Shown piece after piece: positions 33,523 to 60,601 of a DNA stretch of 64,000 nt; positions within the stretch are counted from its first letter, which is position 1, and every line of letters starts with the position of its first letter. The DNA is from Phlebopus portentosus (lineage: Eukaryota; Basidiomycota; Agaricomycetes; Boletales; Boletinellaceae). Where the stretch lies: positions 372,001 through 436,000 of the forward strand of contig JAYXKI010000008.1 in NCBI GenBank assembly GCA_037892935.1, written 5' to 3'. The notes under the pieces were generated by a model that was not told the origin of the DNA, made no database searches, and saw only the letters and a program-made list of their open reading frames with translations. A program made the translations under genes and the position numbers.

Positions 33523-33777
33523 ATATTGACTGTGCGTTCACTCCTTGACTTGATAGCCAGCTGATATCGTAATCTCACCATCAACCCAAAGGTTATCCAA
33601 GGCCTCGTCCACAATTTTCGCAGTTTACTTGGTTCGTCTTTTCATTCCGTTCCCCTGCATACGATCTTAACCGTGGATACCGTATCCTAGTGGTGCGGAT
33701 ACTGCTCGGAGTATTCGAATCTGGCTTTATGCCCGGAGCTACATATTACTTCTCCTGGCGCGTGCATGCCAAGTTAG
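33523..33777 (+). repeat. Inverted repeat, right copy (MFS breakpoint)
   Basis: Matches the reverse complement of 27008-27258. Together the copies bracket a ~6.3 kb segment that contains acs1. Confidence 0.8.
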
Positions 33778-38649: not shown

Positions 38650-39095
38650 CTAAACTTACATGTGGAAGGGTTGAAGTGGCCATTGGACACTCCCTCAAGA
38701 ACTTGGAGGTAATAGGACCGATTCAATCTAACTATTACCTCCGTGATAAGACAAGTCATAGGTAGATAAGACCATGATATGATTTCAATAACCTTACAGA
38801 ACTGGAGATCAGGACTATTTTGCACGGCAGGGAGTGATACTGGTGCAGTACTCACGATGGATGTGGTTCCTTTTGATCTCAACCTGATATCAGTCTAAAT
38901 AGTGCAGGCAATCCTGGTCAAGTTACTTCAGCTGTGAACAAATTTGGTTTTTCATTGCAAATAAATTGATTTTGTTTTTCTTGAATATTCAATGAGCTTT
39001 ATAAATTCTGCACAGATTCAAACTGGCAATGAAGGCACCAAATATATTTCTTCTTTCTTTCTCTCATTGACCTAGTTGTTTACAGTGAGCAAAAA
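38650..39095 (+). repeat. Island repeat: 3'-flank of acidic-protein gene, leftmost copy
   Basis: Aligns by eye with the flanks at about 47940-48130 and 54870-55200: GGTAGATAAGACC, TTTCAATAACC, GTGGTTCCTTTTGATC, AATCCTGGTCAAGTTACTT and TTTTGTTTTTCTTGAATATTC. The associated acidic-protein gene itself is missing. This marks the left limit of the array, interrupted by the Tc1-like element. Confidence 0.7.
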
Positions 39096-40320
39096 AAGTG
39101 TTGACATATTGATATAATTTTTGTTGTTGAGACTGTAACAATTCAACCACTTATGCTATGATCATTCTAAGACCACCACTGGAAAACCATGAATCTTAGC
39201 TTTCAGACAATATATATAATATTAGCAAAATTCAAAAAATTACAGGCATCTGAAACAGATAATCTTATGTTAATGCTTTTTTTACTAACATTTCTTAGGT
39301 ACAAAAATTGATCTAAATTAACTTAGTGTGCCCCCCTTGGCCTTAATCACTGCTGCAACCCTTCTAGATATGTTCTCTATCAAATTCTGATAAACCTCTG
39401 TAAGAATTACATCTCACTGCTTCTGCACCCTCTCTCACAGCTTGAAAATACTACTTGATAGTCTCTCATACTCCTTCAGCCTATTCTTCACATACTTTTA
39501 AAGGTGTTCAATGAGATTAAGGTCTGCTGACTGTATTGGCCATAGCATCACCACAAAACTATAGTTTTTTTTAGCTAGTTGGTAGTCATCTAGATATATG
39601 CTTAGGTTATTATCTTGCTGAAAATATCTTCATCAACCTCTAGACAGTAATGCTCAAGAGTTTCCTAAAGTTTATCCTTTAATATCTAGGTATAGAGCTA
39701 TTAGGAGTGCTGTAGATCTTACAATACCAACTGGGCCAAAAGGCCACAATATCAAGCTTAGCTTAATAACTGGTCTACAGTATATATGCCAGTAATGCTA
39801 GTTTCCTAATAAACAACCCCTCTTAGACTTCTGTAGTTGGAGAGGTGTTTGGAGTGATATTTGGAGATAGTAGAGTGGTTAAGACCCATGATAGAGGCAA
39901 TATCTCAAGTAGATCTGCTGTTCTTAAGAAGAGAGAGGAGTTGCTGCTTCTGTGCTGCAGAGAGAGACTTCATGGTGAATGTGGTTGATGTTAAATGGTT
40001 GTTCTTCAAAGTTCAACATTATATATGAATCACATGATCGACTGTTCCATTTAGAAGGTAAAATCATGCAAAACGGCGGTCTAGCGGAACCTGAGTTATA
40101 GATTTTTTTATATCTTAGAAATGCTGGCAAAAAAAGCATTGGTTTATCTGTCCCGGATGCCTGTAATTTTCGTAATTTTTCGAATTTTGCCACACTATAT
40201 ATCGCCTGAAAGCTACGATTCAGGGCTTTTCAACGGTGGTCGCCATCATATTCTTTCACTAATGCTGTATCTAGCATTTATTGTTACATATTTGTACAAA
40301 CCCGCATTTTTACAACATTG
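39096..40320 (-). mobile_element. Degenerate Tc1-like DNA transposon
   Basis: Long terminal inverted repeats: 39170-39298 pairs with 40115-40245, sharing GAAT-TAGCTTTCAG, CAAAATTC-AAAAA, TTACAGGCATC and AATGCTTTTTTT. Similarity fades outwards, so exact ends are uncertain. Between them lies a minus-strand transposase relic. The left repeat has TpG/CpA where the right repeat keeps CpG, for example CATCTGAAACAG against CATCCGGGACAG. Confidence 0.8.
39330..39973 (-). pseudogene. Tc1-like transposase relic
   Basis: Starts MKSLSAAQKQQLLSLLKNS at 39973. A helix-turn-helix remnant DIASIMGLNHSTISKY is readable, and the C-terminal landmarks of Tc1 transposases survive: VIWPIQSADLNLIEHL-type block, KYVKNRLKEYERL, NLIENISRRVAAVIKAKGGH. 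Many in-frame stops (TAA/TAG/TGA) break it, and the region is strongly AT-biased. It cannot be active. Confidence 0.8.
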
Positions 40321-40413
40321 AGACGGTGCAATATCAAGGCGAGAAAATCCTGCATAGTAGACATCATCCAATGATCCCGATCAAGAAAACTGAATTAGAA
40401 GTCCCCCTCTACA

Positions 40414-42216
40414 CTATCCGACCTTGAGGTGATACACACTGCGTAACATGTGTGCATGTGATTTCGCTACCTTGATATCATCACAACCACCCATGGCCTC
40501 CTTGATTGGACATGTCACCACGACAAGGTCCATATACCGCGCTCCAAGTTTTTCAAGCCACAACAATCCATCCACCTTGATTTCATGCTTCTTTCTGACT
40601 GTCACTTGGAAGAGAGTCGCGATCGAACCTGGGGTGAAAACGAATGCATCGAACGAGACCTGAGACTTCGATAAGGGAATATAAAAAGCATAATCCAATG
40701 TCAGCTGCTCCCCCTCCGCGAAGCTGATTCTTCGCACAGCCTGGAATGATCCTGATGATACGTTGCGGATAGAAATGTCCCCTATGTCTAGTAGTCCCTG
40801 CCATCCCAAGCGTAAATACTGAATTATAGACGCCTCATCGTAATGCCAATGAACATTCTTCGTCGATGGGGACTGTCTTTTCATCTTTTTCATGGGCCAT
40901 TCGCAACCCTCCGGGGACTGCTCGAGGAACAATCTCTCCAGCAGATAACCTGCGCTAGCCCTGGTGAAAGCGTTCGTGACGAAATAATGGTATAGATCTG
41001 CCGTAGCCACCCTGTGGACCCTTCGCAAATGCTCATGTACTTTCTCGGTAAGATACCTAGTGGGTATTCCCACAATGCATTGTGTCCTGTTCTTTGGATG
41101 TGGAGTGCTAAAAAGGTACAGATGGGAAAAGTATTCATCAAACTTGACATCCCAGATGGGCACATTGATCAATTCCTTCATGACATCGAAGTTGAGCAAG
41201 CCGATTTTCTCGTCGACAAGTTGTTCATGTGATGAAGGCTTGTTTGCACCACCATAGACGTAGCGAGCAGACGAACCGAACTTCTTGGTAAAATCCTTGA
41301 TTTGCTGTCCCGACAAGTGAGCATTATGACGCTGAAGATCTCGGCTGTAAACAATCTATCTATCAGGCCTTGCGAAGAAAATTTCAAGTTCAACATACCC
41401 AGCGATGAGTTCTTCGAGGGACCAAGGTGCCATATAAATTTTCCATGGAATTCTGTTGCCTATTTTCGTGAACCATGCGAACCTCGGAGTACACGGAGAT
41501 GCTGACTGAATAACGAATCCATCACTGGTATGACACGCCGTGATAATATCCTGGGTAACGGACCCCAGCTCTTGTCCTGAATCGACTAGAAACCAAGTTC
41601 CTTCCGGTTGCGAGACTGCGCCTAAAACATCGCTCGAGACAATGGAGACTCCCGTTGCATCGAAAAGGAAGCCATGGCTGAGTTTATCGCGAAAGACAGT
41701 GGGCTTGCCTGCGAGGAGGCGGAGTACGAGCACGTAGATAAGGAACATGCTCTTTCCTGAAAACTGGTAAATACGAAAATACAGAGGAGGACAGCTAATG
41801 TGAAACCCACCGATACCGGGTGTGCCAGTCACACTTACACCACTCATATCAAACTCTGGTAATTGGTGCCTAAACGGGTTCTCGATTTCCGACTCATGAA
41901 GGTTGACGTCGACATCCATTTCCGAGTTGTCGGCGGAGGCGCATCTGATGATTTCTCGCAAAGTATCTGAGTATTCATTCCTAACGAGGACTGCATTCAC
42001 GTTGTACTTCTCAAGCAGGTGCTGTCTGCCGTCCACACTGGTTTTCCAACAAATTACGGTGACTGTCTTTTTCCCTTTCAGACGAGCATCCGTGAAGGTG
42101 GATCCAGGGTCCCACGAAACAGGGTGCTGAGCAAAGACATCAGCGACGTTGTCCCCTTTGTTCCAGGCGGCTTCATGAAGCCTTTGTAACGAGCCCAGAA
42201 AAGTATCTTTGGACAT
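40414..42216 (-). CDS. CRN/RHSP-type P-loop NTPase-nuclease
   Basis: Three exons, about 560 aa. Exon 1 (ATG at 42216, MSKDTFLGSLQRLHEAAWNK) ends inside the Walker A loop, which is completed after a ~55 nt intron as GTPGIGKSMFLIYVLVLRLL. Exon 2 has GTWFLVDSGQELG and RFAWFTKIGNRIPWKIYMAP, then WSLEELIAG. Exon 3 continues RHNAHLSGQQIKDFTKKFG, IVGIPTRYLTEKV and a C-terminal REase-like region, SFDAFVFTPGSIATLFQVTV, HEIKVDGLLWLEKLGARYMD. This layout matches fungal proteins of the Crinkler/RHS class, an STAND-like NTPase fused to a restriction-endonuclease-fold domain and regarded as transposon-derived effectors or toxins. Here it is divergent from an acidic-protein gene. No lesion was seen. Confidence 0.82.
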
Positions 42217-42805
42217 GTAGCTCGAGACTTAAAGGTAAAAGTCGTCCGCGTGGCTTAGAGCCTGTTCGGCGGCACTGAGATCTGAGATGTGAGACTGGCC
42301 CTGACACAAAAGACGTTCTCAACTTCTCACGATCGGGGCCAAGTTCAAGGTAGGGAGGGGGCAAAAACCGGTCGACAATGCGGTCGAAAGTAGAATTGAA
42401 ATTAATAATTAATGATTGCGTCAGTGTTGTGACTTATTATGACAACATTCCCACACAGTGGGCAACTGTTATTTACTGTAAGCTTGATTTCAGGCCAGCC
42501 GCTTGAGTTCAAGGAATATAATGGACGCTGTGCTTCGCCACAATATCAATAAGTCTCATCTGATTATTGATTGTAGTCTGTAGTCCATCTTAAGAGCTGC
42601 TGGCAAATGTCGCAGAAATTGTGGCAGATCAAAGAGCCTCACAGGCAAGTATTCAAGTGGCAGTGCCGCTACGGCTTTATCCGGTCACCGGACTAAGTTG
42701 GTTCGACTTCGAGCCACGACTCGGGAAGTCGAGTATAAAGGAACTGCATCCTTCTCGTTTACCACATCCACTGCTTGACTCTTCGAAGAAACACAAGTCA
42801 TCAAT
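42217..42805. promoter_or_regulatory. Divergent promoter, CRN-type / acidic protein B1
   Basis: 589 bp spacer. The right 310 bp (from about 42490) is nearly the same as 49778-50094 upstream of B4; the left part is unique to this module. It contains the shared island element at 42682-42717, here split by a short insertion, and TATAAA at 42734. Confidence 0.65.
42682..42739 (+). promoter_or_regulatory. Island element + TATA box (B1)
   Basis: GGTCACCGGACTAAGTTGG, TTCG, an 8-base insertion, GAGCCAC, then TATAAA at 42734-42739, 67 bp before the ATG. The same element precedes B3, B4, B6 and one pseudogene. Confidence 0.7.
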
Positions 42806-43484
42806 ATGTCGAAAGAGATTCAGAAAGGCGTCTCGCTCCTATCCATTTGCTCAGATGAAACGATCAGAGATCGCGAGCAACCAAAGAAGTATGTACAAAG
42901 GTCGTGCTTTCTATGTCGATTTGTCCTAACACTGTAGCAGAGAGCAAAAACACCGCCGACCGGAGCATTGGATCTATGGATTTCGTTTCAAGAATCTCCA
43001 TGCTCGTCAAATCGCGCAGAAATATGGCCTGCCGTGGAAGTCACGTCCGTTTAGCACATTGCAGAAAGTTATCGATTATATTGAGGCTCTCTCCGGCGAT
43101 TCATGGAGACTCGAGACGATCCCCCGTCACCGAGTCTTCGGTAATGCTCGCATTATATATTTTGCCGAAGACGATGAACGCAAGCGACTCAGCAATCTAG
43201 AAGCCACCGAGGAAGAGATGGACAAAGTACGCAAAGTTCTAGGTTTCCCGAGCGGTACAAAACCTAAATGGTATTGCTGCGATGGTCGGAGCGACTGTGA
43301 CGACGATGCGGACAGTAGTGACGATGAAGTCTTTCCAGGTATGAAACCCGCCCCGCCCCGACCACCGCCGATCGAAGGAGACTCGGACAGTGATATGTCT
43401 GATGACAGCGATAGCGATATGGATTTTGACAGCGACTGGACTTATGACCCAAATGAAGAAGACGGTGTTGACGCTAAGGAGTAA
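42806..43484 (+). CDS. Island acidic-tail protein B1
   Basis: Two exons (42806-42888 and 42938-43484), 209 aa. The N-terminus is MSKEIQKGVSLLSICSDET; the core has HWIYGFRFKNLHARQIAQKY, GLPWKSRPFSTLQKVIDYIE, ARIIYFAEDDERKRL, EATEEEMDKVRKVLGFPSGT and KPKWYCCDGR. The last 75 residues are Pro-rich and then intensely acidic (SDSDMSDDSDSDMDFDSDW). I do not recognise the family. The acidic tail suggests a nuclear or nucleic-acid-mimicking protein. The acceptor is a NAGNAG (TAGCAG), giving two in-frame options. It is divergent from the CRN-type gene. An immunity or regulator role is inference. Confidence 0.82.
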
Positions 43485-44300
43485 AGTACTCAGCGATGTG
43501 TGCAGTGCTCTCTTCAGTGGGCGTCTCTTATACCGCTGTTATTTCGTATCTCAGCTAACAACTCTTTCTCAAACGATCTTTATTGTTGCATATGTAATGT
43601 TATCGTTACCGAATCAGTCAAGACACATATTACGGCCAAAATCCTGCGCAGACGCTACAATGAAATCGGTTGCCCGATGACCAATTGAGTTTGGATGAGC
43701 AACTGCAAAGTTGCGTCTTTGGGAGTGTATCTTCTCTTCGAAATCATGGGATTCAGTGCGTAGTCATGGCTGATAAAAAGCTCAGTGGTGTCCCAAGATA
43801 GTAGGAATGTTCGACGAGTCTTTCACTGCCCGGAAGAATTTCAATAAGGCCAAGACGAGCTTGAAGTTCCAATCATTGTCTGGCATTTTATAGTAAACAA
43901 ACTATGACCAGATCGAAGGATTGAACGTCTCGTGTGCAACGAGTGGGCGCTCGACCTATTCAGCTCAGATCTGCCTTCCAGGACGATGTTATCACTTGTG
44001 CCTCTCGATTTAGCGTAAGCAATACGGCGACAACAAATATACCATTGCCCTGGAAATGGCGGCTCTACACATGTTAAAGTTGTAAATACCTAACAACGAT
44101 GCGATTCTAAGGACAACAAGGAGATACTGATTCATTACTTCAGAAACAGTTCAAAAATCCCCTAGGTCAATCTCAACAGAATTTGCGACAATGCAATGCT
44201 CTCAAATAATGCATGCGATCCCAGTCATATTACTTCCGTTGCGGACGGATTGGTTTTGGGTTTCTTGAATACACAATCAACCTTTTTTATATAATGCACC
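43485..44300 (+). repeat. Island 3'-flank repeat with rtf1 fragment (after B1)
   Basis: Matches 50778-51480 and, from 43740 on, 60170-60650. Landmarks: TTCAGTGCGTAGTCATGGCTG, GTGTCCCAAGATA, TTCGACGAGTCTTT, ATACCATTGCCCTGGAAA. At 44149-44206 it contains a copy of the last codons of rtf1 (reverse strand) before switching to an AATGCATGCGATCCCAGTCA block. No gene. Confidence 0.75.
44149..44206 (-). repeat. Copy of the rtf1 3' coding end
   Basis: Reads GTTCAAAAATCCCCTAGGTC, AATCTCAACAGAATTTGCGA and CAATG...CTCTCAAA. This matches 60601-60653, which encodes the rtf1 C-terminus (SVEIDLGDF and stop). It is a footprint of duplication from the rtf1 border. Confidence 0.8.
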
Positions 44301-44540
44301 GACATCATCACGTTTATTCTATGCGGAGTTCAATACTGGCTTTGGAAGGTCATCAACAGCGCTAACGTTCTCTTATTTCTCTCTGACTACGGTCCGACGT
44401 CGGGTGAAAGAGTCCTCTCATTATCCCGTGAACTCGCTGCCGATAAATCTGCAGGTATGTGATCATTGAGTTGGACAAGCTGGGTCATTCGGTCTGTCGA
44501 ATCAAGCTAATGAACCTAGTGTTGAAGTTAGTACCGTCAT

Positions 44541-44950
44541 GAACGCTGGGTCCATGGATAGCATTTCCAGAATCGTCATGCTCGTCTCATGGAAGATTCA
44601 ACCAATGAGTATCTTTCAATGCAATACTGGACGACACCACTGCCGTTACTCGTACGCCGTTTAGGCTTCGCCTGGGTTCTCGTCTTGGAACCACGGGACC
44701 TTCTCGTATCAAATAGTCGGAAGTTTGTGCTAAAGAGATTGATAGGTACGAGAACTCTTGGGTCCTCCCAAAGGAACAAAACCTAAATGGTACAAGCGCT
44801 ATTGCTGCGAACAGTTTCGGATGACTTGTCTGCGGAGACTGACGGAAGCTTCATGAGTGATGAAAGCTACGACAGCGATGGCAGCCGTTACAATAGTAGC
44901 ATTGACTACGAGAGTGACAATAGCGATTTCAAGATCAAGAAGTCAACTGA
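44541..44950 (+). pseudogene. Acidic-tail family pseudogene (psi-B2)
   Basis: Fragmented copy: an HFKNRHARL-like segment with a stop, LVRRLGFAWVLVLEPRDL from a shifted frame, PKGTKPKWY across a frame break, then DESYDSDGSRYNSSIDYESD. Exon 1 is not found. Its tail is closest to B3/B6. Confidence 0.7.
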
Positions 44951-45348
44951 TTCTCCACTGTATGTACTGCCCACTTCACATTTGTATTCCCCGACGCCAT
45001 CGTTACTTGTGATAAACCAGACCCAGTTTACTTACAGCGGATGATCTGGCCGAAACAACATATAAGCGGTCAGTTCAATGAGTTTTATTTCCCGAACGAA
45101 TACATCTGGCTGCTTGGACGATGTTCTCACTTCGCACTACAGTGCTTGGCAGCAAAGAAACATGTATTCGGTATTAGTTCATATTTATAGCATTGAAACA
45201 TTTGCGTCATTCACGCTTTATACAGCATAATGGAGATACGTTTAGAACTTTCGAAGGTTATAGACAGAGTGTCCTTCGTCCGATGCAAGGCTTTCCTGGT
45301 CGTGACATCAGCAGGACAATAACTTTAGAACTCAAAGATTACGCACCT
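44951..45348. other. Island spacer, duplicated at 51920-52256
   Basis: No gene seen. Shares ATAAGCGGTCAGTTCAATGA, TTTATTTCC and TTTAGAACTTTCGAA with the region before A3. Confidence 0.55.
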
Positions 45349-46365
45349 TCACTTTTCGCGGAATTCTCTGGAGTCAGGCAGGTCATAAATAGCTTGCAAC
45401 ATATTTTGCATTTCGGCATCGCTTTGCTCGGTACCAAGAACGAAGTATATCGGCGGTGAATCCTCTGCATCTGGGGCATCCTGTGGTTGAGAGTCGCTTC
45501 TTTCATGCAATACATCTAGGCCTTGAGACTGGTCAGCATCTTGTCCCGCGATAGAACTCTGCGACCTGGTTTCCTCGGTGGGCATTCTCGTGGTAAGTGA
45601 TCCACTTGCCTCTGGCTGTTCATCGCGATCCGGGGAAACCAGCCCTATGTAATCATCCGACCCTTGTTCACTCAACGGAATTTCTTCGCTCTTCTCGGAG
45701 GCTGAAGGTGGCCTGTATGTCGCATCGAGATTCTTTGAAGCTGGTTTGATGCCAAGGTCATCTGGCTTAAATATACGCCAGCTCCAATAGTCACCGGCAG
45801 CCCAGATACCAACCACAACTTTCTTCTTCTTTTTCCACGTTTTCTTGGCAAACAAGCGGTCTATCTGCCGCATAAGCTGTGAACGGGCAGCGGAGAGGTC
45901 ATTGCTTATTGTTTCATCATTCGTCTCATCCGGAAAGGGTTTTATCTCTAGCAGTGCAACTGTCTTCTGTGAGATGCGACCTCTGGGAGTAAAGTGACTT
46001 CGTGAAACGTTCTTGGTCCGGTTCGAGCGTCGAAGCGGGCTGGTTTCAGCTGTCCGTTGCACAGTAAAATCCGGGATCAGCCACCGTTTCACCAGCTTGT
46101 CATCGTTATTGTGAACTGTACTGGAGACATAATGCTGAGGGCAAGGAACCAGGGTTTTGGTGGGGCCCAATAGGGAAATCAAGACGCAGTTCCACGTTGG
46201 GTACCAATAGTGTTCGAGGCCACGAAAACGAATATTCTCCTTCTGATGCTCCTTGCCTTCCTTGCGCTGCGACTCCTGCATTCTCTGTACATGCGAAATA
46301 GTCGGATACGAAATCAACTCGATTTTCTGGTTCCAGTTATCGGTAATCGACACGACATCAGACAT
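45349..46365 (-). CDS. PD-(D/E)XK nuclease-like protein A1
   Basis: Single exon, 338 aa, ATG at 46365 (MSDVVSITDNWNQK). After a Lys/Glu-rich N-terminal helix and GLEHYWYPTWNCVLISLLGP, a PD-(D/E)XK-like core appears: KRWLIPDFTVQR carries the Asp (residues ~95-105), VALLEIKPFPDE carries E-x-K (~140-150), followed by an amphipathic helix (QLMRQIDRLFAKK) and the strand KKVVVGIWAAGDYWSWRIF. The C-terminal half is Ser/Glu/Asp-rich and probably disordered, ending DLPDSREFREK. The fold assignment is inference from D...ExK and its surroundings; no activity is shown. Divergent from B3 across 601 bp. The 3' half is nearly identical to A3. Confidence 0.82.
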   Translation of the reverse strand: MSDVVSITDNWNQKIELISYPTISHVQRMQESQRKEGKEHQKENIRFRGLEHYWYPTWNCVLISLLGPTKTLVPCPQHYVSSTVHNNDDKLVKRWLIPDFTVQRTAETSPLRRSNRTKNVSRSHFTPRGRISQKTVALLEIKPFPDETNDETISNDLSAARSQLMRQIDRLFAKKTWKKKKKVVVGIWAAGDYWSWRIFKPDDLGIKPASKNLDATYRPPSASEKSEEIPLSEQGSDDYIGLVSPDRDEQPEASGSLTTRMPTEETRSQSSIAGQDADQSQGLDVLHERSDSQPQDAPDAEDSPPIYFVLGTEQSDAEMQNMLQAIYDLPDSREFREK

Positions 46366-46966
46366 TTCTGAGGTTCAAGTATTTAAAGTTAGTGAGCGCT
46401 GCTACAGTCTTTGGATAGATCATAACACACCTGATTACTTGACGATGTAGTTAGAAACTCGAGTTAGTACCTGGACGAACTTATGAAGGTGGTACAAATC
46501 GCCAGGAAAGAACACGCCTTAAATATTGAAAATTTCGTGGCTCGTTTCAACTTCCATTTCTTTACACTAGATCTCAGATATAACAGAGGCCACATCAGTA
46601 TCCGACTGCGTGTCCTAAGAATATTTCCCGGTGACTCGGTAATACAAAGAGATAATGATATCTGCGGCCAACCTGTGCATATGCCTATCTCTGCCACATC
46701 CATTTCTGGCGATCAAAGCATGTTTTTTTCTGCTTATCGGTTGTTCCTGTTGTCATGTCTTGAGCGGTCCGGCCTTGCTGTGGGCAACTGTGGCGAATGG
46801 GAGATTCTGTCGAGATTCAGAATGTGGAAAAGAGTGGCGGAATGTATCCAGTCACGGGACTAGTTGGTTCTGGCCACAAGAATTCTTATATGTATAAAGA
46901 CGACCGCATCTTTCTCATTTACCAATACCATACCACACCTATCCCTTGACCACAACAACCGTCATC
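46366..46966. promoter_or_regulatory. Divergent promoter, A1 / B3
   Basis: 601 bp, homologous along its length to the A3/B6 spacer (53286-53877): GTGGCTCGTTTCAACTTCCA, TTTCTTTACACT, GATATCTGCGGCCAACC. Contains the island element and TATAAA near B3. Confidence 0.65.
46851..46898 (+). promoter_or_regulatory. Island element + TATA box (B3)
   Basis: GTCACGGGACTAGTTGGTTC, TGGCCAC, then TATAAA at 46893-46898, 69 bp before the ATG. An upstream GTGGCGGAATGTAT also recurs before B6. Confidence 0.75.
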
Positions 46967-47661
46967 ATGCCCAAGGAAATTCAGAAAAGCATCTCACGTC
47001 TGTCCATTCACCCCTACGAATCAAGTACCCCTGTGAAAAAAGAGCAGAAGTATGTACAATGACTCGAGTCTAGGTTGAGTTATTTTAACAAAACCCCTAT
47101 AGATGGTACCGTGGCCAGCTCTGGATTTACGGATTTCATTTCAAGAATCGTCATGCTCGTCTTATCTCTGAGAAATATGGGCTACATTGGAAGACACGAC
47201 CAATGAACACCGTGGATCGCATACTTGATCACATAACAGCCACTACTCGCACCCGGTATAGACTTCGTGCCGTTTCCCGTCCTGGACTCACTGGAACTCG
47301 TCGTATCATATTCTTTGCGGAGGATGATGGTCGTAAACGCCTCAAAAAATCCGAAGCAACTCCTGAAGAGATAGACAGAGTACGCAAAGTCTTGGGTCTT
47401 CCCGAAGGAACAAAGCCTAAATGGTATAACTGCTATGGCTGCAAGGAGTATGATGGGATGGCGGATAGCAGTGAGGATGAAGATTGGCCTGGCGTGAAGC
47501 ATGTTCCTGCAAAACCAGTCGAAGAGAAAGACGACTCTTCGAGCGACTCGTCTGCTGAGAGTGACGGAGATCAGACAAGCAAAGAAGACTATGATAGCAC
47601 CATGGACTACGAAAGTTCAGATTCGGACGACAGTACTGACAGCAATTCCGATGCGGAGTAG
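46967..47661 (+). CDS. Island acidic-tail protein B3
   Basis: Two exons (46967-47049, 47103-47661), 213 aa. MPKEIQKSISRLSIHPYESS, then QLWIYGFHFKNRHARLISEK, YGLHWKTRPMNTVDRILDHI, TRRIIFFAEDDGRKRL, EATPEEIDRVRKVLGLPEGT, KPKWYNCYGCKEYDG, then an acidic Ser/Asp tail (SSDSSAESDGDQTS, DYESSDSDDSTDSNSDAE). Same unknown family as B1 but a distinct subtype shared with B6. Divergent partner is A1. Splice sites GTATGT and ATAG are clean. Confidence 0.82.
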
Positions 47662-48462
47662 ATCATTCTAACGGACGTACTGCTGTGTTCATTTTTTGTT
47701 TCTTAAAGCTGTCGCCACGTATTCTGTGCCGCAATCAAATGTGTCTACTCTCCTCCAGAGCTTCTCAATGCCAATGGCTTATTACAGAAACTTGCATTCA
47801 ACTCAAACTCGACTTACTTATGGTGGATGCATTATCCGAGCCATAGTCAGTCCGGAGAATTCTTTTCATATAATGCTTGCGTCTTCTGACGTATTGCTGT
47901 CGTTGCGAGTCAGTCAAGGCACGTATTACGGCCACAATCCTGTAGAGCATATGATAGATAAGACCGTGAGATGATTTCCAATAACCCTTATGACTGTTTT
48001 GCGGCGGAGCAGGGTGGTTTGGATCTGGTGTGGTACTTGTGATGGATGTGGTTGCTTTTGAGCTCGCCCTAGTATCGGTCCAAATAATGCAGGCGACCCC
48101 AGTCAAGTTACTTTAGTTGTGAACACTATGGTGTAAAAGAGATATTCTCAGTGAGATCAGAAGTTCAGCAACGGTAGTGTATCACAGCGGTCGACAGAGT
48201 ATCACTTGAGGTTAATTTTTTGTCCTCAATCATATACAACGAACCACAGTACATTTAAACTGATGGATCAGCACTTCCAAATAGATTGTAGAATTTACTT
48301 GACTTGACATTCATTCGACATTTCGTACACAGTACAGAAAACTTGCGCATTTTTTGCGCATTAGATTGAATAAGATGGTAGATCTGGGACCCCCAGCACA
48401 ATCGGTAATTCACTAGGCATGGATCAATGAGATGATTGTTTAAAGTCAAAGGCTACATACCT
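47662..48462 (+). repeat. Island 3'-flank repeat (after B3)
   Basis: From the stop to about 48130 this matches the region after B6 (54584-55060): TGTGTCTACTCTCCTCCAG, ACTCGACTTACTTATGGTGG, CCAATAACCCTTATGACTG. The rest to 48462 is the 3' side of A2. No gene. Confidence 0.65.
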
Positions 48463-50094: not shown

Positions 50095-50777
50095 ATGTCG
50101 AAAGAGATTCAGAAAGGCGTCTCGCTCCTATCCATTTGCTCAGATGAAACGGTCAGAGATGACGAGCAACCAAAGAAGTATGTACAAAGGACGTGCTTTC
50201 TATGTCGATTTGTCCTAACACACACCGTAGCAGAGCACATAAACGCCGCCGAGTGGAGCGTTGGATCTATGGGTTTCGTTTCAAGAATCTCCATGCTCGT
50301 CAAATTGCGCAGAAACATGGCTTGCCGTGGAAGTCACGCCCGTTTAGCACATTGCAGAAAGTTATCGATTATATCGAGGCTGTCTCCGGCTTTTCATGTA
50401 GATTCGAGACGATCGACCGTCGCCGAGAATTCGGTAATGCTCTCGTTATATATTTTGCTGAAGACGATGAACGCAAGCGACTCAGCAAGCTAGAAGCCAC
50501 CGAGGAAGAGATGGACAGAGTACGCAAAGTTCTAGGTTTCCCGAGCGGTACAAAACCTAAATGGTATTGCTGCGGTGGTCGGAAGGAGTGTGGCGAATCT
50601 GCGGACAGTAGTGACGATGAAGTCTTTCCAGGTATGAAACCCGCCCCGCCCCGAGCACCGCCGATCGAAGGAGACTCGGACGGTGATACGTCTGACGACA
50701 GCGATAGCGATATGGATTTTGACAGCGACAGGACTTATGACCCAAATGAAGGAGATGGTGTTGATGCTGAGGAGTAA
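50095..50777 (+). CDS. Island acidic-tail protein B4
   Basis: Two exons (50095-50177, 50231-50777), 209 aa, a close paralogue of B1 with the same exon lengths. MSKEIQKGVSLLSICSDETV, ERWIYGFRFKNLHARQIAQK, HGLPWKSRPFSTLQKVIDYI, then a divergent patch (GFSCRFETIDRRREFGNALV), then IYFAEDDERKRLSKLEA, KVLGFPSGTKPKWYCC, and the acidic tail ending EGDGVDAEE. The patch differs from B1 at nine codons, all replacements. The partner in divergent orientation is A2. Function unknown. Confidence 0.82.
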
Positions 50778-51480
50778 AGTTTATTCGGCGATGTGTGCAC
50801 TGCTTTCTTCAGCGGGCGTCTCTTATACCGCTGTCATTTCGTATCCCAGCTGCCAACTCTTTTTCCATATGATCTTTATTATTGCATGTGTAATGTTATC
50901 GTTACCGAATCAGTCAAGACACATATTACGGCCAAAATCCTGCGCAGACGCTACAATAAAATCGGTTGCCCGATGACCAATTGAGTTTGGATGAGCAACT
51001 GCAAAGTCGCGTCTTTAGGAGTGTATCTTCTCTTCGAAATCATCGGATTCAGTGCGTATAGTCGTGGCTGCTCAGTGGTGTCTTAAGATAGTAACAGCGT
51101 TCGACGAGTCTTTTCTCGTCCGAAAGAATTTCAATAAGGCCAAGACAAGCTGGAAGTTCCAATCATTGTCTAGCATTTCATCGAGTACTCAACCAATTCA
51201 GCTCAAATTTGCCTTCCAGGACGATGATATCGTTTGTGCCTCTCGATTCAGCGCAAGCAATACGGCGACAACAAATATACCACTGCCCTGAGGTTAAAGT
51301 TGTAAATACCTAACAATAATGCGATTAAAAGAACAAAAGCGGATACTGATTCATCACTTTGAAAATCCCGAGGCCAATCTCAACAGGATGCTCTCGAATA
51401 ATGCATGCGATCCCAGTCAAATTACTTCCGTTGCGGACGAATCGGTTTTGCGTTTCTTGAATACACGATAAACTTTTTCA
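50778..51480 (+). repeat. Island 3'-flank repeat with rtf1 fragment (after B4)
   Basis: Near copy of 43485-44300. The block CCGAATCAGTCAAGACACAT, ATTACGGCCAAAATCCTGCG is the same in both. A shortened rtf1 3'-end remnant is at 51361-51398 (GAAAATCCCGAGGCCAATCT, CAACAGGATGCTCTCGAA). Confidence 0.7.
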
Positions 51481-51527
51481 TATGATGCCATTTATTCTAT
51501 GCGGAGTTCCAACTGGCTTTGGAAGGA

Positions 51528-51916
51528 ACGCATATTAGACCATTTCACAGCTGTCACTCATACGCCATATGGGCTTCTCGTGGGTTCTCATCTTGGAACT
51601 ACTGGACCTTCTCGTATCATATTCTTTGCAAATATGACGGTCGTAAACGTATCAATACTCGGAAGCTTGTGCTAAGAGACTGATAGGTACGAGAACTCTT
51701 GGGTCCTCCCGAAGGATCAAAACCTGAATGGTACAAGTTCTATTGCTACGTACAGCTTCGGATGACTCGTCTGCGGAGAGTGGCGGAAGCTTTGCGAGTG
51801 ATGAAAGTTACGACAGCGATGGTAGCAGTTACAATAGGAGCATTGACTGCGAGGGTGACGACTCAGAGGATAGCTTTGATAGCGATTTCAATATCAAGAC
51901 GCCATCGTACTTGTGA
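51528..51916 (+). pseudogene. Acidic-tail family pseudogene (psi-B5)
   Basis: Decayed copy of the B3/B6 subtype: ACTCATACGCCATATGGGCTT, CGTATCATATTCTTTGCAAA, GGTCCTCCCGAAGGATC (GPPEGSKPEWY), then DESYDSDGSSYNRSIDCEGD and stop. Frame breaks and missing exon 1. Positional counterpart of psi-B2. Confidence 0.7.
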
Positions 51917-52256
51917 TATCACGGACCCAGTTCACTTACAGCGGATGGTTTGGCCGAGATAATATACAGTCGGTCAGTTCAATGAGCTTTATTTCCTCAT
52001 CGAATACATCTGGTGGCTTGAACGATGTCCTCACTTCGCACTATAGTGCTTGGCGGCAAAGAAACATATATTCGGTATTAGTTCATCTTTACATAAAGCA
52101 TTGAATATTTGCGTTATTCACGCTTTATACAGCATAATGGAGATACGTTTAGAACTTTCGAACGTTAAAGACAGAGCGTCCTCCGTCGTATGCAGGACTT
52201 TCCTGGTCGTGATATTAGCAGGACGATAGCTTGAGAAGCTCAAAGATTACGCACCT
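51917..52256. other. Island spacer, counterpart of 44951-45348
   Basis: Repeated spacer before A3; no gene seen. Confidence 0.5.
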
Positions 52257-53285
52257 TCACTTTTCGCGGAATTCTCTGGAGTCAGGCAGATCATAAATAG
52301 CTTGCAACATATTTTGCATTTCGGCATCGCTTTGCTCGGTACCAAGAACGAAGTATATCGGCGGTGAATCCTCTGCATCTGGGACATCCTGCAGCTGAGA
52401 GTCACTCCTTTCGTGCAACACGTCTAGGCCTTGAGACTGGTCAGCATCTTGTCCTGCGATAGAACTTTGCGACCTGGTTTCCTCGGTGGGCATTCTCGTG
52501 GTAAGTGATCCACTTGCCTCTGGCTGTTCATCGCGATCCGGGGAAACCAGCCCTATGTAATCATCCGACCCTTGTTCACTCAACGGAATTTCTTCGCTCT
52601 TCTCGGAGGCTGAAGGTGGCCTGTATGTCGCATCGAGATTCTTTGAAGCTGGTTTGATGCCAAGGTCATCTGGCTTAAATATACGCCAGCTCCAATAGTC
52701 ACCGGCAGCCCAGATACCAACCACAACTTTCTCCTTGTTCTTCCACGATTTCTTGGTGAACAAGTGTTCTATCTGCCGCATAAGCTGTGAACAGGCGCCG
52801 GCAAGGTCATTGCAAATTGTCATATCACTTGTCTCATCTGGAAAGGGCTTTATCTCGAACAATGCGACCGTCTTCTGCGAGATGCGACCCTCAGGACTAA
52901 AGCGGCGTCGTGGAAGTTTCTTAGTCCGCTTTGAGCGTCGGAGTGGAGAAGTTTCAGCCATGCGTTGTACAGTAAAATCTGGGATGAGCCACCGTTTGAT
53001 CAGTTTCTCGTCATTGTTGTGAACCGCGCTCGAGACGTAACGCTGAGGGCAAGGAATCAGGGTCTTGGTGGGACCAAACAGGGCAACCAAAACGCAGTTC
53101 CAGGTCGAATACCAATAATGTTCGAGGCCACGAAAAGCATCCTCTTTCTCCTTCTGACTCTTCTTGGCTTTCTTACTCTTCTTGCGCTGATCCTCTCGCA
53201 TTCGCTGTATATACGATATAGTCGGATACGAAACCAACTCGACTTTGTGGATCCAGTTATTGGTGATCGATGCAACATCAGACAT
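52257..53285 (-). CDS. PD-(D/E)XK nuclease-like protein A3
   Basis: Single exon, 342 aa, ATG at 53285 (MSDVASITNNWIHKVELV); an in-frame upstream extension to 53348 is not supported by the paralogues. Motifs: GLEHYWYSTWNCVLVALFGP, KRWLIPDFTVQR, VALFEIKPFPDE, QLMRQIEHLFTKK, KVVVGIWAAGDYWSWRIF. The N-terminal half differs from A1 at many residues, while the region from KVVVGIWAAGDYW onward is almost identical, including a 265 bp tract (52468-52732) with no difference to 45560-45824. Divergent from B6. Putative nuclease core intact; activity unknown. Confidence 0.82.
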   Translation of the reverse strand: MSDVASITNNWIHKVELVSYPTISYIQRMREDQRKKSKKAKKSQKEKEDAFRGLEHYWYSTWNCVLVALFGPTKTLIPCPQRYVSSAVHNNDEKLIKRWLIPDFTVQRMAETSPLRRSKRTKKLPRRRFSPEGRISQKTVALFEIKPFPDETSDMTICNDLAGACSQLMRQIEHLFTKKSWKNKEKVVVGIWAAGDYWSWRIFKPDDLGIKPASKNLDATYRPPSASEKSEEIPLSEQGSDDYIGLVSPDRDEQPEASGSLTTRMPTEETRSQSSIAGQDADQSQGLDVLHERSDSQLQDVPDAEDSPPIYFVLGTEQSDAEMQNMLQAIYDLPDSREFREK

Positions 53286-53877
53286 TTCTGGAGCCATATA
53301 TTTGTAGTTAGCGAGCGCCGCTATAACATATAGAGTGAATAACAACATACCTGATTATTTGAAGATGTGGTTAGAAGCTCTAAATATTTGGACGAACTTA
53401 TGGAGGTGGTATAAATTGTCAGGAAAGAACATGCCTTAAATATCGAAAATTCCGTGGCTCGCTTCAAATTCCATTTCTTTACACTGGTTCTCAGATACAA
53501 TAGAGGCCACACCAGGATCCTATCGCGTATCTAAAAATTCCAAATGACTCAGTAATACAAAGACATAGTGATATCTGCGGCCAACCAATGCACATACCTA
53601 CCTGTGCCACATCCATTTCCACGATAAGAGCATAGGTTTTACATTCATCGACTATTCTCGTCGTCATATCTCAAGCACTGAGACCTTGATGTGGGCGAAT
53701 GTGGCGAAATGGGTCAGGATTCAGAATGCATTACTTTGACTTCAGTTGTGGCAGAATATATCTGGTCACGGGACCAATTGGTTCGGGCCACGCCACGAGT
53801 TGACCATATAAAGACGACAACGTCTTTCCCATTTACCTCACTCAACATTTGACTACAACGCAACAACAATAACCAGC
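53286..53877. promoter_or_regulatory. Divergent promoter, A3 / B6
   Basis: 592 bp, full-length counterpart of the A1/B3 spacer. Confidence 0.65.
53764..53812 (+). promoter_or_regulatory. Island element + TATA box (B6)
   Basis: GGTCACGGGACCAATTGG, TTCGGGCCAC, then TATAAA at 53807-53812, 65 bp before the ATG. Confidence 0.75.
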
Positions 53878-54583
53878 ATGCCCCGGGACATTCAGAGAGG
53901 CATCTCCCGCCTATCCCTTCGCCCCTACAAGTCAAGCGGCTCTGTGAAAGAAGCTCAGAAGAGCTCAAAGAAGTATGCACAACGACTCAGTTCTAAGTTG
54001 AGTTACTCTAACGATATCCCATAGATGGTACCGTGGTCAGCTCTGGCTTTACGGGTTTCATTTCAAGAACCGTCACGCTCGTCTCATTTCAGAGAAATAT
54101 GGGCTACCGTGGAAGACTAACCCGATGCGTGCTTTGGAGCGCATACTACTTCATATCACAGCAACCACTCGTACGCCATATAGACTTCGTGCCGTCTCTT
54201 GTCCAGGATTCACTGGAACTTGTCGTATCATATTCTTTGTGGAAGACGATGGCCGTAGACGTCTCAAAAAATCCGAAGCAACTCCCGAAGAGATAGACAG
54301 AGTTCGCAAAGTCTTGGGCCTTCCCGAAGGAACAAAACCTAAATGGTATAATGTTTATGGCAGCAAGGAATACGATGAGATGGCAGATAGCAGCGAGGAT
54401 GAAGATTGGCCAGGTGTGAAGCGTGTTCTCACGAAACCAGTCGAGGAGGAAGATGACTCTTCGAGCGACTCATCTACTGAAAGTGATGGAAATCAGACAA
54501 GCGACGATGACTATGATAGTCCCATGGACTACGAAAGTTCAGATTCGGATGATAGTGCTGAAGGCAATTCCAATGTGGAGTAG
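53878..54583 (+). CDS. Island acidic-tail protein B6
   Basis: Two exons (53878-53972, 54025-54583), 217 aa. MPRDIQRGISRLSLRPYKSS, an N-terminal insertion (QKSSKK) relative to B3, then QLWLYGFHFKNRHARLISEK, YGLPWKTNPMRALERILLHI, CRIIFFVEDDGRRRL, EATPEEIDRVRKVLGLPEGT, KPKWYNVYGSKEYDEM and an acidic tail (SSDSSTESDGNQTSDDDYD). It is the duplicate of B3, as A3 is of A1. Changes from B3 cluster in the same central patch that separates B1 from B4. Unknown function. Confidence 0.82.
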
Positions 54584-55695
54584 ATGGTTCTAATAGACGT
54601 ACTGCTGTGTTCATTTTTGTTTCTCAAAGCTGTTATCACGTATTCTGTGCAGTAATCAAATGTGTCTACTCTCCTCCAGCTTCTCAATGTCAATGGCTTA
54701 TTACAGTAACTCGCATCGAACTCAAACTCGACTTACTTATGGTGGATGCACTATCTGAGCCATAGTCGGTCCAAGGAATTCTTTTTCATATGATGCTTGA
54801 GTCTTCCTACGTAGTGTTGTGGTTGGAAGTTAGTCAAGGCGCATATTATGACCAAAATCTTGTACATACATCGTATGGTAGATAGGACCGTGAGATGATT
54901 TCCAATAACCCTTATGACTGTTTTGCGGAGCAGGACTAGGGTGGTGTGGAACTCGTGATGGATGTAGTTCCTTTTGATCCCGCCCCAGTATCGGTCCAGA
55001 TAATGCAAGCAATCCCGGTCAAGTTCTTTCAACTATGAGTGAATTTGGGCCTTCATTGCGAATGAAATGCTTTTGTTTTTCTTGAATATTCAATAGACTT
55101 AGTTATTTACTTTATAAGTAGAAAAGATGTGGTGACATCAGCACATTTGTTTCCGCGTAGAGTTTGAAACTAGCGGATGAAGGCATCAAACATGTTTCTC
55201 ATTCCTTTCTCTGTTTGACCACAAATGGATGTCGCTCGAGAGGGTCCTCTCATTGTCCTGTGAGCTCGAAGCCGATAAACCTATAGGTATATGATCATTG
55301 ACTTGGACATAGACGTGTGGTCAAAGGGTGAGAACAGATAGGGCTATGCCTATCGCCGTGCCGACCAAGAGCTGAGGCGAAATCGCCACAAACTATACAC
55401 AAGATGGTACTACGGAGTTGCGGAGTGGATATGACTCAATTGTATACATAGAATGGTCAAGGTAGATGGTTGCCACATTGTATCAAATTGACAAAATAGG
55501 GTGGGCAACGACCTCTTATTAATCGCCATCGATAAGTCATCTCTGCGGCTCTGTTGTGGACATATGTGGCAGAACTTGGGAGTGACAAATCCAGGTGGCA
55601 ACAAACTGCAGAGTAAGCCAGGTACCGGTTGGTTCAGGCCACAAAAGAGACCAAACAGGATATTTTGCTATTTTACGAAATGACAAATCATCGAC
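54584..55695 (+). repeat. Island 3'-flank repeat and spacer (after B6)
   Basis: To about 55200 it repeats the flanks at 47662 and 38650 (ACTCGACTTACTTATGGTGG; CCAATAACCCTTATGACTG; TTTTGTTTTTCTTGAATATTC). 55200-55610 is unique to this copy as far as seen. A degraded island element (GGTTGGTTCAGGCCAC) lies at 55627. No gene. Confidence 0.6.
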
Positions 55696-56359
55696 ATGAC
55701 TGAGGAAATTCGGAAAGACATGTCGCACGTGTCCATTTGCTCAGATGAAACGGTCGGAGGGGATAAGAAATCGAAAGAGTATGTAAAGGAAGTAGTTTCT
55801 GTGCTAAGTTACCTCTGACGCTATAACAGAAAGCCAAAGCGTTGCCATCCAGAACGTTGGATTTACGGCTTTCATTTCAAGAATATCTACGCTCGCCGAA
55901 TCACGGAAAAATAGACTGCTGCGGAAGACACGCCCATTCAGGACGCTGGAACGAGTAAACAGTCATATTTGAACTGTCTCCGGACTTGTGTACATAATCG
56001 ACGTGATTCCCCACCGTCATGTTTGCACGACTGCTTGCATCATATATTTTGCCGAAGACGATGTGCATAAACAACTTAGTAAATTAGAAGCCACCGAGGA
56101 TGAGATGGACAAAGTTTGCAAAGCGCTCGGTCTTCCCAAAGGGACAAAGCCTAAATGGTATTGTTGCCATGGGTGGATAGAGTATGACGATGATGACAAT
56201 AGGAGCGACGATGAAGCTTTGTCAAGTATTGGACCCGTCCCAACAAGGCCATAAGCAGTTAAGGACGACTCGGCCGACGACAGCGATAGTGACAAGGATT
56301 TCGGCAGTGACTGGATCTATGATCCTTATGAAGACGATGATATCGACGCTCAGAAGTAA
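55696..56359 (+). pseudogene. Acidic-tail family pseudogene (psi-B7)
   Basis: Exon 1 is intact-looking (MTEEIRKDMSHVSICSDET). After a normal intron the body reads HPERWIYGFHFKNIYARRIT, then a stop (EK*). Frame shifts follow, then IYFAEDDVHKQLSKLEA, KALGLPKGTKPKWYCCHG, a stop after VPTRP, and an acidic DDSDSDKDFGSDWIYDPY tail to TAA at 56357. At least two lesions. Confidence 0.8.
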
Positions 56360-57002
56360 AGTATCCAGCGAATGATTCACTGCGTGTCGGGCCTATCTAT
56401 TCGTACCCCTCTAGATAGATGCAGATGAGCTGGAAGTATATTTCCTGGTATAGCAGTAGATGACCTAGATAAGTCACTGCATAGATGAAAATATACAATC
56501 TTTTTATTACCTATGAAAGTCTTGTTCTAGATTCTCTAAGTCGATTATCTGGAAAGACAAATCCAGAAGCCCTTTGTATACCTATAAGGTCTTACTCATA
56601 GATCATCTGTTCAGAATGTTCAAAAAAGTAGAACCAGATAATCTATTGTGATCTATGCAATGCACTCCAGATGATCTACAGTCATCTGTGGCACTAGATG
56701 TTGATGAAGAAATGGACTTCGTGTTCTCACAGATCCCCACCTTCCTCCTTAACCCTGAACCACCATGTCGTGTCGTCCTCCACCTTGCCTCTTTGTGGTC
56801 CTAAGCATCTGCCACATTTATTTTTTAATAAGATATAATGATTGATAATAGATGCACACCTGATACACTTTCCTCTTGCTACGTCGCAGTCAATGGATGG
56901 GTTGAGCACATATGTGCCACTGCTATTGTTGACTGCGTCAAGAGCAAAGTAGGTCAGTAACAGACTGCAGCTTTTCATCAAGAAAAATCTTCCATTTCCT
57001 CT
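56360..57002. other. Left part of inserted block, AGAT-rich
   Basis: Homology to the island flank ends near CGTACCCCTCTAGATAG (56391). From there the DNA is rich in AGAT/ATCT words and is unrelated to the island. A similar CGTACCCCCCTTCTAGATG occurs at 58887, so the two may bound an inserted block carrying the HMG gene. No gene. Confidence 0.4.
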
Positions 57003-58225: not shown

Positions 58226-59240
58226 CAAAGAGGAGGCGAATACAACGCGATGAATACGTTCCAGTTCCCGAGTTCACATGCGCAACCGCAGCAACCGATG
58301 GCCCTTGGTATATAAGGGCAGGTACCCGATTTCTTGACTGCTGGCGGCGAGATGCAGGTGTGTAAAGTTTGCGTCCGAACTTCCGCTTTTCGTCGTCGCT
58401 GACTCTCCAATCCCTAGCAGAATTCTATGTTCGGAGAGCCGCCGACTGCGCGTCCACGACGCCGTGCCCTCGCGCAACTCTCTCTCGTTCTCGAGGACGA
58501 CTTTCCCTCTGGATCAAGGACCTGCCTAATACGGGTCTCAGATAGTATTAATATTATTTTTGTTTTATCTGTATACAATAAAAACAGTATTTATTTGCAA
58601 TCCCGGCGGACCTTGAATTCTCTTCTTACATAATTTTCGGGCCTTGAATTATTTTACATAAACCTGAGCAAGCTGAAAGAGATCTGAACAGATGGTATGT
58701 TTGAGACGTTCAATAGATGTTCCTATACAATATACTCACACCTTTCCTATGGGTATGCTAGATTATCTTCATGAGACCTTGACAAGGTAGTTTTTGTGAG
58801 CGTTCGTCTGCCTTTGCTCGGATACACCTAGATCACCTAGTACATGCTGTTATAGGTTAAAATAGGTTATCTGTTTGCATCTGCGTACCCCCCTTCTAGA
58901 TGGACCTGACACGCGGTGATTGCGAGCGCTTCTTTCTCCACCAGTTTATGTATCGGAACTACCTTTTCGTAATTCATACAATAATTCTGTGTTTACTGTC
59001 TTCTGAACGTCGCTTTGTGAAGCTAGCCTGATAATGGCCAAAAATGTGTCGAATGTTGGAGAACCGGTGAAATATCCTCAGCTCATTCTTCCTTCAAGTT
59101 CAGCGTCTGAATCCTTCGGAGTTGGTCACAGGACCAGTCGGTTCAAGCCACGGATGGACTCCCGGTATAAAGACGACAACATTTTCTCCATTTACCACAT
59201 ATCGACTAGTTAACCATCCGGTGAGACAAAAATCATCGAC
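58226..59240. other. Spacer between HMG relic and psi-B8
   Basis: 58226-58890 is 3' of the HMG relic; the CGTACCCCCCTTCTAGATG word at 58887 may be the right limit of the inserted block. A good island element (GGTCACAGGACCAGTCGG, TTCAAGCCAC) is at 59124-59151 with TATAAA at 59166. Confidence 0.45.
59124..59171 (+). promoter_or_regulatory. Island element + TATA box (psi-B8)
   Basis: Well-preserved element and TATAAA upstream of a pseudogene, so promoter conservation outlasts the coding frame here. Confidence 0.65.
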
Positions 59241-59903
59241 ACGCCGAAGAAGATTCAGAAACGCGTATCACGTCTATCCATTCGATCAGGAGAATCCGAT
59301 GCCTCTAAACGACAGGATCGCAAGAAAATTCAACAAATGAAGTAGTAGTTTATACGATGCGCCTAGCTAACAAATCTCTATAGATCGCACCGTAAGGAGG
59401 AGTGGGTATATGGAAACCATTTCAAGAACCGTCATGCACGTCTCATTGCTCAGAAGCATGGACTACCATTGAAAACTCGTCCCAGGTCTATCTTGGATCG
59501 TGTTCTTTATCTCATTGCAGTCACTTTTGGCAAACTCTAAAGGCTTCGACCGGTACCCCAACGCGACAGGTACAGAACTTCTCGAATCATATACTTCGCT
59601 GAGGGTGACCAGCGTAGACGTCTCAAACATCTGGAAGCCACCGAGGAAGAAATGGATGGAGTCTGCAAGGCCCTAGGACTTCCCAAGGGAACGAAACCCA
59701 CGTGGTATTGCTGCAATTACTACGAGGACGGAGTGGATAGCAGCGAAGATGAAGCATGGCCAAACAACAAGATCTACATGCCGATCCTGCAGGAGTTGGC
59801 TGACGAAGACAACGGCTCAAGCGGCGCAGTCGAGGAATGCGATGAAGACGCTGATTCTGCTAGCGACGAGACTAATGATTCTGACGACACCGAGACTAAC
59901 TAA
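59241..59903 (+). pseudogene. Acidic-tail family pseudogene (psi-B8), rtf1-adjacent
   Basis: The start codon position reads ACG (TPKKIQKRVSRLSIRSGES). Exon 2 is otherwise well kept: EEWVYGNHFKNRHARLIAQK, HGLPLKTRPRSILDRVLYL, a stop at the centre (FGKL*RLRP), RTSRIIYFAEGDQRRRL, EATEEEMDGVCKALGLPKGT, an acidic tail ending SDDTETN and TAA. Lesions: lost ATG and one nonsense codon. Its 3' flank runs straight into the rtf1 end, so it may represent the ancestral position. Confidence 0.8.
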
Positions 59904-60601
59904 AGTATTCAACAACGTATGCTCTGGGTTTTCTGGTCATTGTTTCTCTTAAATGCCAGTATTGTGACATCGCATCTCAAATAGCAATTGTCTTCCCTTT
60001 CATATGTAGAGTCGTCCCTGCCATATTAGTTGGCAGTCACCACGCATCCTATGGTGTAAGCATTGTACGTACAATGTTTGCCGTCTGACAACCGATTTAG
60101 TATGAAGAGGACAGGTGTACATAAAGTGGCATGCTTAGAACGACTCTAAGCGTATCTTTGAATCATGGACTTCAGTGCGTAGTCATCGCTGCTAAAAGGC
60201 TCTGTAGTGTCCCAAGATACCAAGAGAGTTCGACGGGTCTTCTCCTTGCCGAAAGAAAGCCAATAGGGTCAGCACGAACTTGAAGATCTTCCGGACGGAT
60301 ACATTGATATTGTCTGACATTTTATGATAGATTAACTGTAAGTAGATCGAAGGATCAATGTCTTGTGTGGACAGAATATTACTCATTCAAATGCACAAAC
60401 TGAACCGTTTTCAGCTTCAAGTTTGCTTTAGAGGACGATAATATCGCTTGTGCTTTCCGATCCAGCGTAAGCAACACGACGACGACAAATATACCATTAC
60501 CCTGGAAACGGCGATTCTACACATGCTAAAGCTGTTGATACCTAACAATAATGCAATGAAAAGAACAAAAAGGGGATTCTGAATGATCACTTGAAAACAG
60601 T
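59904..60601 (+). repeat. Island 3'-flank repeat, rtf1 border copy
   Basis: From 60165 it matches the flanks after B1 and B4 (TTCAGTGCGTAGTCATCGCTG; GTGTCCCAAGATACC; ATACCATTACCCTGGAAAC), continuing without a break into the rtf1 coding end at 60602. This is the only copy where the rtf1 part belongs to a full gene. Confidence 0.75.

Follow-up and report, generated by a model that had tools for sequence, protein, structure and literature searches.

A divergently paired family of nuclease-like and small-partner genes in a basidiomycete, possibly a poison-antidote module

Introduction

In the 38.4 Mb, 23-contig genome assembly GCA_037892935.1 (Phlebopus portentosus), a 64,000-nucleotide stretch of contig 8 (C8:372001-436000), here called the window and numbered from its first letter, carries an island of genes from two protein families. 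Members of the first, family A, are likely PD-(D/E)XK-type nucleases, as judged from motifs and a structure model, and members of the second, family B, are small proteins whose core is basic and whose tail is acidic. A and B genes are found as divergent pairs, and this pairing is old; cognate A and B types have diverged together, both genes are under constraint, and their decay is lopsided, i.e., with A being lost where B is retained. Tentatively, A and B are viewed here as forming a two-gene module consisting of a nuclease poison and its cognate antidote, a reading that is argued from sequence and from analogy.

Somatic incompatibility in basidiomycetes is described, in passages of PMC8229728, as poorly understood, with models borrowed from ascomycetes. 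In the literature searched (titles and the starts of abstracts) no basidiomycete spore-killer or meiotic-drive gene was found to be described, nor was any paper found on the A or B families. The A/B family is new. Its kind of mechanism, if the poison-antidote reading holds, is one that other lineages are known to have.

Pairing in the window and beyond

The island is bordered to the left by a CCC1/VIT1-type gene (Pfam match, E 7e-20) and to the right by a Plus-3 (rtf1-like) gene, the latter weakly recognized (E 0.0027, under the curated cut-off). Between these are three divergent pairs, with A on the minus strand and B on the plus strand, and these are of two types: A45 (45349..46365) with B47 (46967..47661), both type I; A48 (48463..49485) with B50 (50095..50777), both type II; and A52 (52257..53285) with B54 (53878..54583), again type I. 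To these are added one intact B next to a Crinkler (CRN)-type gene and four B copies that are degraded. Start-to-start gaps are 601, 609, and 592 bp, respectively, for the three A:B pairs, and 589 bp for CRN:B. A preliminary description of this DNA had given open reading frame (ORF) positions, which are found as such among the window's ORFs, along with a separation of 589-609 bp, which the measured gaps reproduce. It had also counted four pairs that are 'built alike'. Three of them, the A:B pairs, are indeed alike, but the fourth is not, as there the minus-strand, CRN-type gene shows no relation to A in a comparison of thin profiles, and the match to the B50 module starts inside of the gap.

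Duplication, which had been pointed out as well, is readily seen in self-matches of the window, with 42484..48114 (the left copy) matching 49773..55029 (the right copy, neither being assigned a strand) in two blocks, at 84% and 81% identity. Because this segmental duplication accounts for a good part of the regular layout, the window pairs are not independent events. Independent evidence for pairing is instead a second cluster, found on contig C4.

That cluster was identified upon searching the genome with queries of both window and second-cluster types, with only the best candidates scored, such that distant copies could escape. A loci were found in the window (three) and in the C4 cluster, at about 1.901-1.923 Mb (six), and nowhere else, with B found in the same two clusters plus as one solo copy (C8:487618-489122), and again nowhere else. 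Among those pairs entering the distance comparison described below, the C4 proteins are 28-35% (A) and 32-38% (B) identical to the window copies, with one further C4 B being 38-44% identical to them. Despite this distance, four of the six C4 A loci face a plus-strand B, the exceptions being a 5'-truncated copy without a following B and another that is divergent from a Crinkler N-domain gene. A divergent B neighbor is present, that is, at seven of the nine A loci genome-wide. Across the six pairs that have enough sequence, a seventh with a short A fragment having been left out, A identities and B identities furthermore correlate (r 0.92), with 2 of 720 Mantel relabellings, the true one included, doing as well. 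Of the adjacency and joint inheritance to be expected of a poison and its antidote, what is seen here is adjacency together with co-divergence. As judged from these sequences, A-B pairing is old and general.

For both A and B, every named protein relative belongs to Sanghuangporus (Hymenochaetaceae), for which proteins and locus tags were the material compared (orientation being deduced, and with annotated proteins perhaps hiding broken frames). This genus accounts for five of five B matches, 11 of 11 A profile matches, and four of five A sequence matches. An A relative of unnamed origin, P0010, is 42% identical to A, is missing from the later profile-search matches, and suggests that A extends beyond the named species. 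In S. baumii the locus tags alternate, with ACEPAG_1977 a B, 1978 an A, 1979 a B, and 1980 an A, and in S. weigelae ACEPAI_2683 (B) and ACEPAI_2684 (A) are consecutive; in both species type II A accompanies type II B, as in the window. In S. vaninii the A that was found differs in type from the B, and 14 tags separate them. Among relatives sharing short exact words, which are what these searches reach, A but not B was found in S. sanghuang, and none of the named species yielded a type I B.

The 'constant pairing' of the preliminary description thus holds for A and B, given both the seven of nine loci and the consecutive tags of two named species, but not for CRN and B. Homologues that are usually unlinked elsewhere, which that description had named as speaking against its proposal, are correspondingly not what is seen with A and B, but are what is seen with CRN and B, as relatives of the CRN-type gene are on contigs C12, C15, C17, and C6, without B copies having been found there.

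Constraint on both genes and loss of one

A and B are protein-coding and under purifying constraint. By simple pairwise count, and with Fisher p for constraint calculated on rounded counts, the ratio of nonsynonymous to synonymous differences per site (dN/dS) is 0.22 for A45/A52 (p 8e-15) and 0.15 for B47/B54 (p 1e-15). Synonymous differences between A45 and A52 are unevenly distributed, at 0.38-0.61 per site in codons 0-159 vs. 0.00-0.09 in codons 160-279, with none in codons 200-239. Sequence exchange, as previously claimed, is borne out by this tract of near-zero synonymous difference.

Decay, also previously claimed, is seen as degraded B copies in the window and broken A copies on C4. All three of the window's A genes are open. 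On C4, by comparison, none of six A is open, with breaks that look like deletion, truncation, frame change, or stop, vs. four of five B (a sixth B scrap, of 48 residues, was left out of the count), a difference with a Fisher p of 0.015 among copies which, it must be noted, are related to one another. Intact A is found with intact B in three of three cases, and intact B with intact A in three of nine. That C4 B has been constrained is suggested by B1902/B1912, which differ by 15 nonsynonymous and nine synonymous changes (dN/dS 0.40, p 0.04), and by B1902/B1915 (dN/dS 0.24). The loss of A from C4 may be recent or local, since longer A relatives of C4 type (271-301 aa) are annotated in three Sanghuangporus species, i.e., S. 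weigelae, S. baumii, and S. sanghuang. B is found on its own also as the solo copy on C8, which is 1.5 kb in length, 99.7% identical, and begins at the B50 TATA box. As it retains the intron, it was copied as DNA.

The A and B proteins

A45 (338 aa, in one open frame), A48 (340 aa), and A52 (342 aa), recognized from ORFs, alignment, and motifs, are a single family with pairwise identities of 50-84%. In the PD-(D/E)XK superfamily, the defining motif consists of PD followed by (D/E)xK on consecutive core strands. The order of motifs in the A core is IPDF, then (V/A)xxEIK, and then GIWAAGDYW or near variants of it (IPDF, VALLEIKP, and GIWAAGDYW in A45), so that PD and (D/E)xK are found, as IPDF plus EIK, in all three window proteins. 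PDF with E(I/S)K is found also in those named A relatives that cover these regions, and one dead C4 A copy reads IIGVKP, with the catalytic Glu gone. No Pfam match near cut-off was found for A, nor was a significant relative in the PDB by sequence.

The structure model of A is weak (mean predicted local distance difference test score, pLDDT, of 43.7), with a long acidic linker of low confidence. Its order of elements is a helix at 57-70, strands at 76-81, 86-89, 95-98, 103-108, and 137-146, a helix at 154-177, and strands at 185-194 and 197-203, an order which we take to be compatible with a PD-(D/E)XK fold. Structural matches of this model to PD-(D/E)XK enzymes are weak and level with those to unrelated folds. 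With the SFTSV (severe fever with thrombocytopenia syndrome virus) cap-snatching domain, MGME1, and BsmI, all PD-(D/E)XK, A thus shares the order IPDF...EIK and, in that weak model, a compatible order of helices and strands, but its structural matches to them are tied with other folds. In the S. vaninii relative, the N-terminal part and the core have isoelectric points (pI) of 9.9 and 9.8, vs. a linker that is acidic (pI 4.1). At the C-terminus is a conserved acidic segment, LGTExSDxxLQxMLQAIYDLPDS, modelled as a helix at a pLDDT near 75.

The four intact B proteins of the window likewise are a single family (pairwise identity 44-84%), and those of the three pairs are about 205-210 aa in length. 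In B, a short, MSKEIQKGVSLLSI-like exon 1 is followed by a core that has a pI of 9.9 and about 117 residues, and then by a tail that is 37% Asp/Glu. Their earlier description as 'acidic-tail' proteins consequently is apt as to the tail, but the core domain is basic. Two exons are predicted for each of the three paired B genes; in B47 exon 1 begins MPKEIQKSISRLSI..., with the frame of exon 2 running from 47089, and for B50 there is an annotated S. vaninii relative, P0002, of 208 aa. The core is modelled with fair confidence (block means mostly of 80-92) as beta-alpha-alpha-beta-beta-alpha-beta. KH domains recur among its weak structural matches, at a resemblance that is far under significance, and this likeness is a lead only. 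As with A, neither Pfam matches near cut-off nor a significant PDB relative by sequence was found.

Poison and antidote, or something else?

The poison-antidote reading is favored because A and B remain adjacent across deep divergence, because they co-diverge, because both are constrained, and because the nuclease appears to be lost before its partner. Under this reading A would be an intracellular PD-(D/E)XK-type nuclease having a basic N-terminus and core, an acidic linker, and a conserved C-terminal helix, and it is by nuclease activity that A would kill. B, a small alpha/beta protein that is transcribed away from A from a TATA promoter of its own, would bind its own A and render it harmless, perhaps via A's C-terminal helix, or instead with B's acidic tail masking the basic face of A. 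Where A is present, cells or nuclei would have to retain B, while B could outlast A, and inheritance of the locus would thereby be favored in spores or in the dikaryon.

Two known systems are comparable. The SPOK proteins of Podospora and Fusarium, as portrayed in passages of PMC6660238, PMC9972908, and PMC12693581, depend on a PD-(D/E)XK nuclease domain in order to kill, and one allele is known that confers resistance without killing. So far as those passages go, A resembles SPOK in being a multi-copy family with an intracellular, though here predicted, PD-(D/E)XK domain. SPOK combines poison and antidote within one protein that has a kinase domain, however, whereas A-B consists of two divergent genes, and in a basidiomycete. 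No kinase family is present among Pfam matches up to E 1 (13 A rows, 14 B rows), i.e., the SPOK combination of nuclease and kinase is not seen, and what follows the nuclease core in the A model is no more than a stretch of low confidence plus a short helix. In Wolbachia, according to parts of PMC8787490, CinB is a nuclease to which a linked, cognate CinA binds, and there are diverged cognate types along with pseudogenes. A-B as predicted from sequence is similar in its two linked genes, its PDDEXK nuclease and cognate partner, its several types, and its pseudogenes. CinA-CinB is nevertheless a bacterial two-gene operon, with CinB having two nuclease domains, and the likeness is one of description rather than of sequence comparison. 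A-B would work like SPOK or CinA-CinB in logic, that is, while being a member of neither.

Nuclease-type C-termini are also common in CRN, or Crinkler-RHS, proteins, as indicated in portions of PMC5289972, and a CRN-type gene is present in the window cluster. The Crinkler N-domain (PF20147), however, was not found in A or B using a library that does detect it in the C4 cluster (L039:8349-8807), and hhalign gives a probability of 0.4% for the local CRN C-terminal domain vs. A, as compared by thin profiles.

The chief rival, which we consider improbable, is that B instead targets or activates A within a nuclease of two components, e.g., as an RNA- or DNA-binding adaptor, and that this nuclease acts against viruses, transposons, or foreign nuclei. 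B's basic core speaks in favor of this. That B persists, and apparently under constraint, where A copies look broken is odd, however, for a subunit that serves A only, and the KH resemblance, as noted, is far under significance.

Distinctly less probable still is that B is a locus-specific transcription regulator of its own pair, with A as the sole effector. Activators typically combine a basic core with an acidic tail, and the B genes do possess what could be a private promoter element. This is 28 bp in length and precedes the TATA box by about 11-16 bp at B47 (46850..46877, with two mismatches), B50 (49983..50010), B54 (53764..53791), and the dead B59 (59124..59151), in all cases on the plus strand. 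At no more than three mismatches these four sites, all at window B copies, are the only ones found in 38.4 Mb, vs. none for a reversed-pattern control. The B42 element has been broken up by an insertion. Against this regulatory role, the C4 cluster yielded no such element at up to six mismatches, the solo B copy, which begins at the TATA box, lacks it, and it might be bound by any host factor. Nor does the gap support the shared promoters that had been proposed, since its B side alone has a conserved block, with the A-side half lacking one and being 40-53% identical from one type to the other.

An equally slim chance is given to adjacency being merely historical, with A and B unrelated in function and the pattern due simply to a linked block having been duplicated in tandem. 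Equal spacing and mirrored distances would both follow from tight linkage along with segmental duplication. The divergent order has been kept, however, at roughly 30-40% protein identity and amid copies that have been broken, shuffled, or lost, and in two named species the order of locus tags puts A and B next to each other. Least probable is that the pair is what remains of a domesticated mobile element, with A a former transposition nuclease, B an accessory, and neither now having a role in conflict: A's nuclease-like character, the multi-copy clusters, the pseudogenes, and a solo B next to retroelement-like frames all fit, but convincing terminal inverted repeats were not found around the three modules, the copies found are confined to a pair of clusters and a single copy nearby, having spread by segmental duplication, and both genes are constrained.

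Should the poison-antidote reading be true, then the window would offer a specific locus at which to study genomic conflict in the dikaryon, one that includes cognate types as well as naturally occurring copies in which A is dead and B is live. It is doubtful, though not so improbable as those rivals, that A-B is a genus-wide, multi-copy family of nuclease poisons and cognate antidotes, as encoded by separate, divergent genes whose families are unrelated and undescribed, and a candidate basidiomycete killer or nuclear-conflict locus. Even if not a poison and antidote, A and B are a conserved two-gene family that lacks a Pfam model and so far is found almost only in one genus.

Other features of the island and its surroundings

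The CRN/RHSP-like gene (40414..42216, minus strand), which had been taken as a fourth minus-strand partner, is by relatives search and profile comparison a neighbor rather than an A-type partner. It has no Pfam match, its Walker-A-like GTPGIG...GKS probably is split by an intron, and an in-frame stop probably lies within a second intron. B42 (42806..43484, plus strand), the intact type II B adjoining it, is missing the A-side half of its module. The B42 and B50 modules are 84% alike from 42484 to 44349, and on the CRN side of 42484, inside of the gap, identity drops from about 95% to 43-44%. Because the match ends within the gap, B42 appears to be what is left of a duplicated A48-B50 module, from which A was lost and whose B half came to adjoin the CRN-type gene.

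At least four further B pseudogenes had been claimed, and the four degraded copies of the window, all on the plus strand, are at 44526..44927 and 51525..51817 (both seen as window self-matches), at 55696..56371 (one TGA and one TAA within the main match, plus a frame change), and at 59370..59903 (B59, with one TAA inside, and with promoter element and TATA box persisting upstream). Between two dead B copies there also is an HMG-box gene (57039-58225, plus strand; PF00505, E 3.9e-7; PF09011, E 9.1e-6). A relative of B, P0001 (S. baumii A7U60_g5612; 291 aa), is a fusion of a B50-like core with a B42-like one, and is a product either of recombination between B copies or of chimeric assembly. Adjoining the solo B, C8:489199-492302 (L046) has frames which, as read, resemble a retroelement coat protein and, on the opposite strand, an integrase.

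The genome as a whole has 27 Crinkler N-domain matches, all above the curated cut-off, and Sanghuangporus, to which its closest protein matches belong, is a wood-inhabiting genus. One match is within the C4 cluster, where from L039:8349-8807 onward (plus strand) a Crinkler N-domain gene and then a kinase-like frame are divergent from a broken A, in B's usual place. The kinase likeness is a reading of the translation, with the piece tried giving no Pfam kinase match.

Lastly, various repeats are present. One of about 170-230 bp is found at the island's left border (38761-38993), downstream of B47 (47955-48125), and downstream of B54 (54877-55094), with the first copy 72-73% identical to the other two. 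Outside of the island, 23028-26998 is a tandem duplication of about 2.2 kb, its pieces 71-83% identical, and 27008-27265 and 33523-33780 form an inverted repeat of 258 bp at 86% identity.

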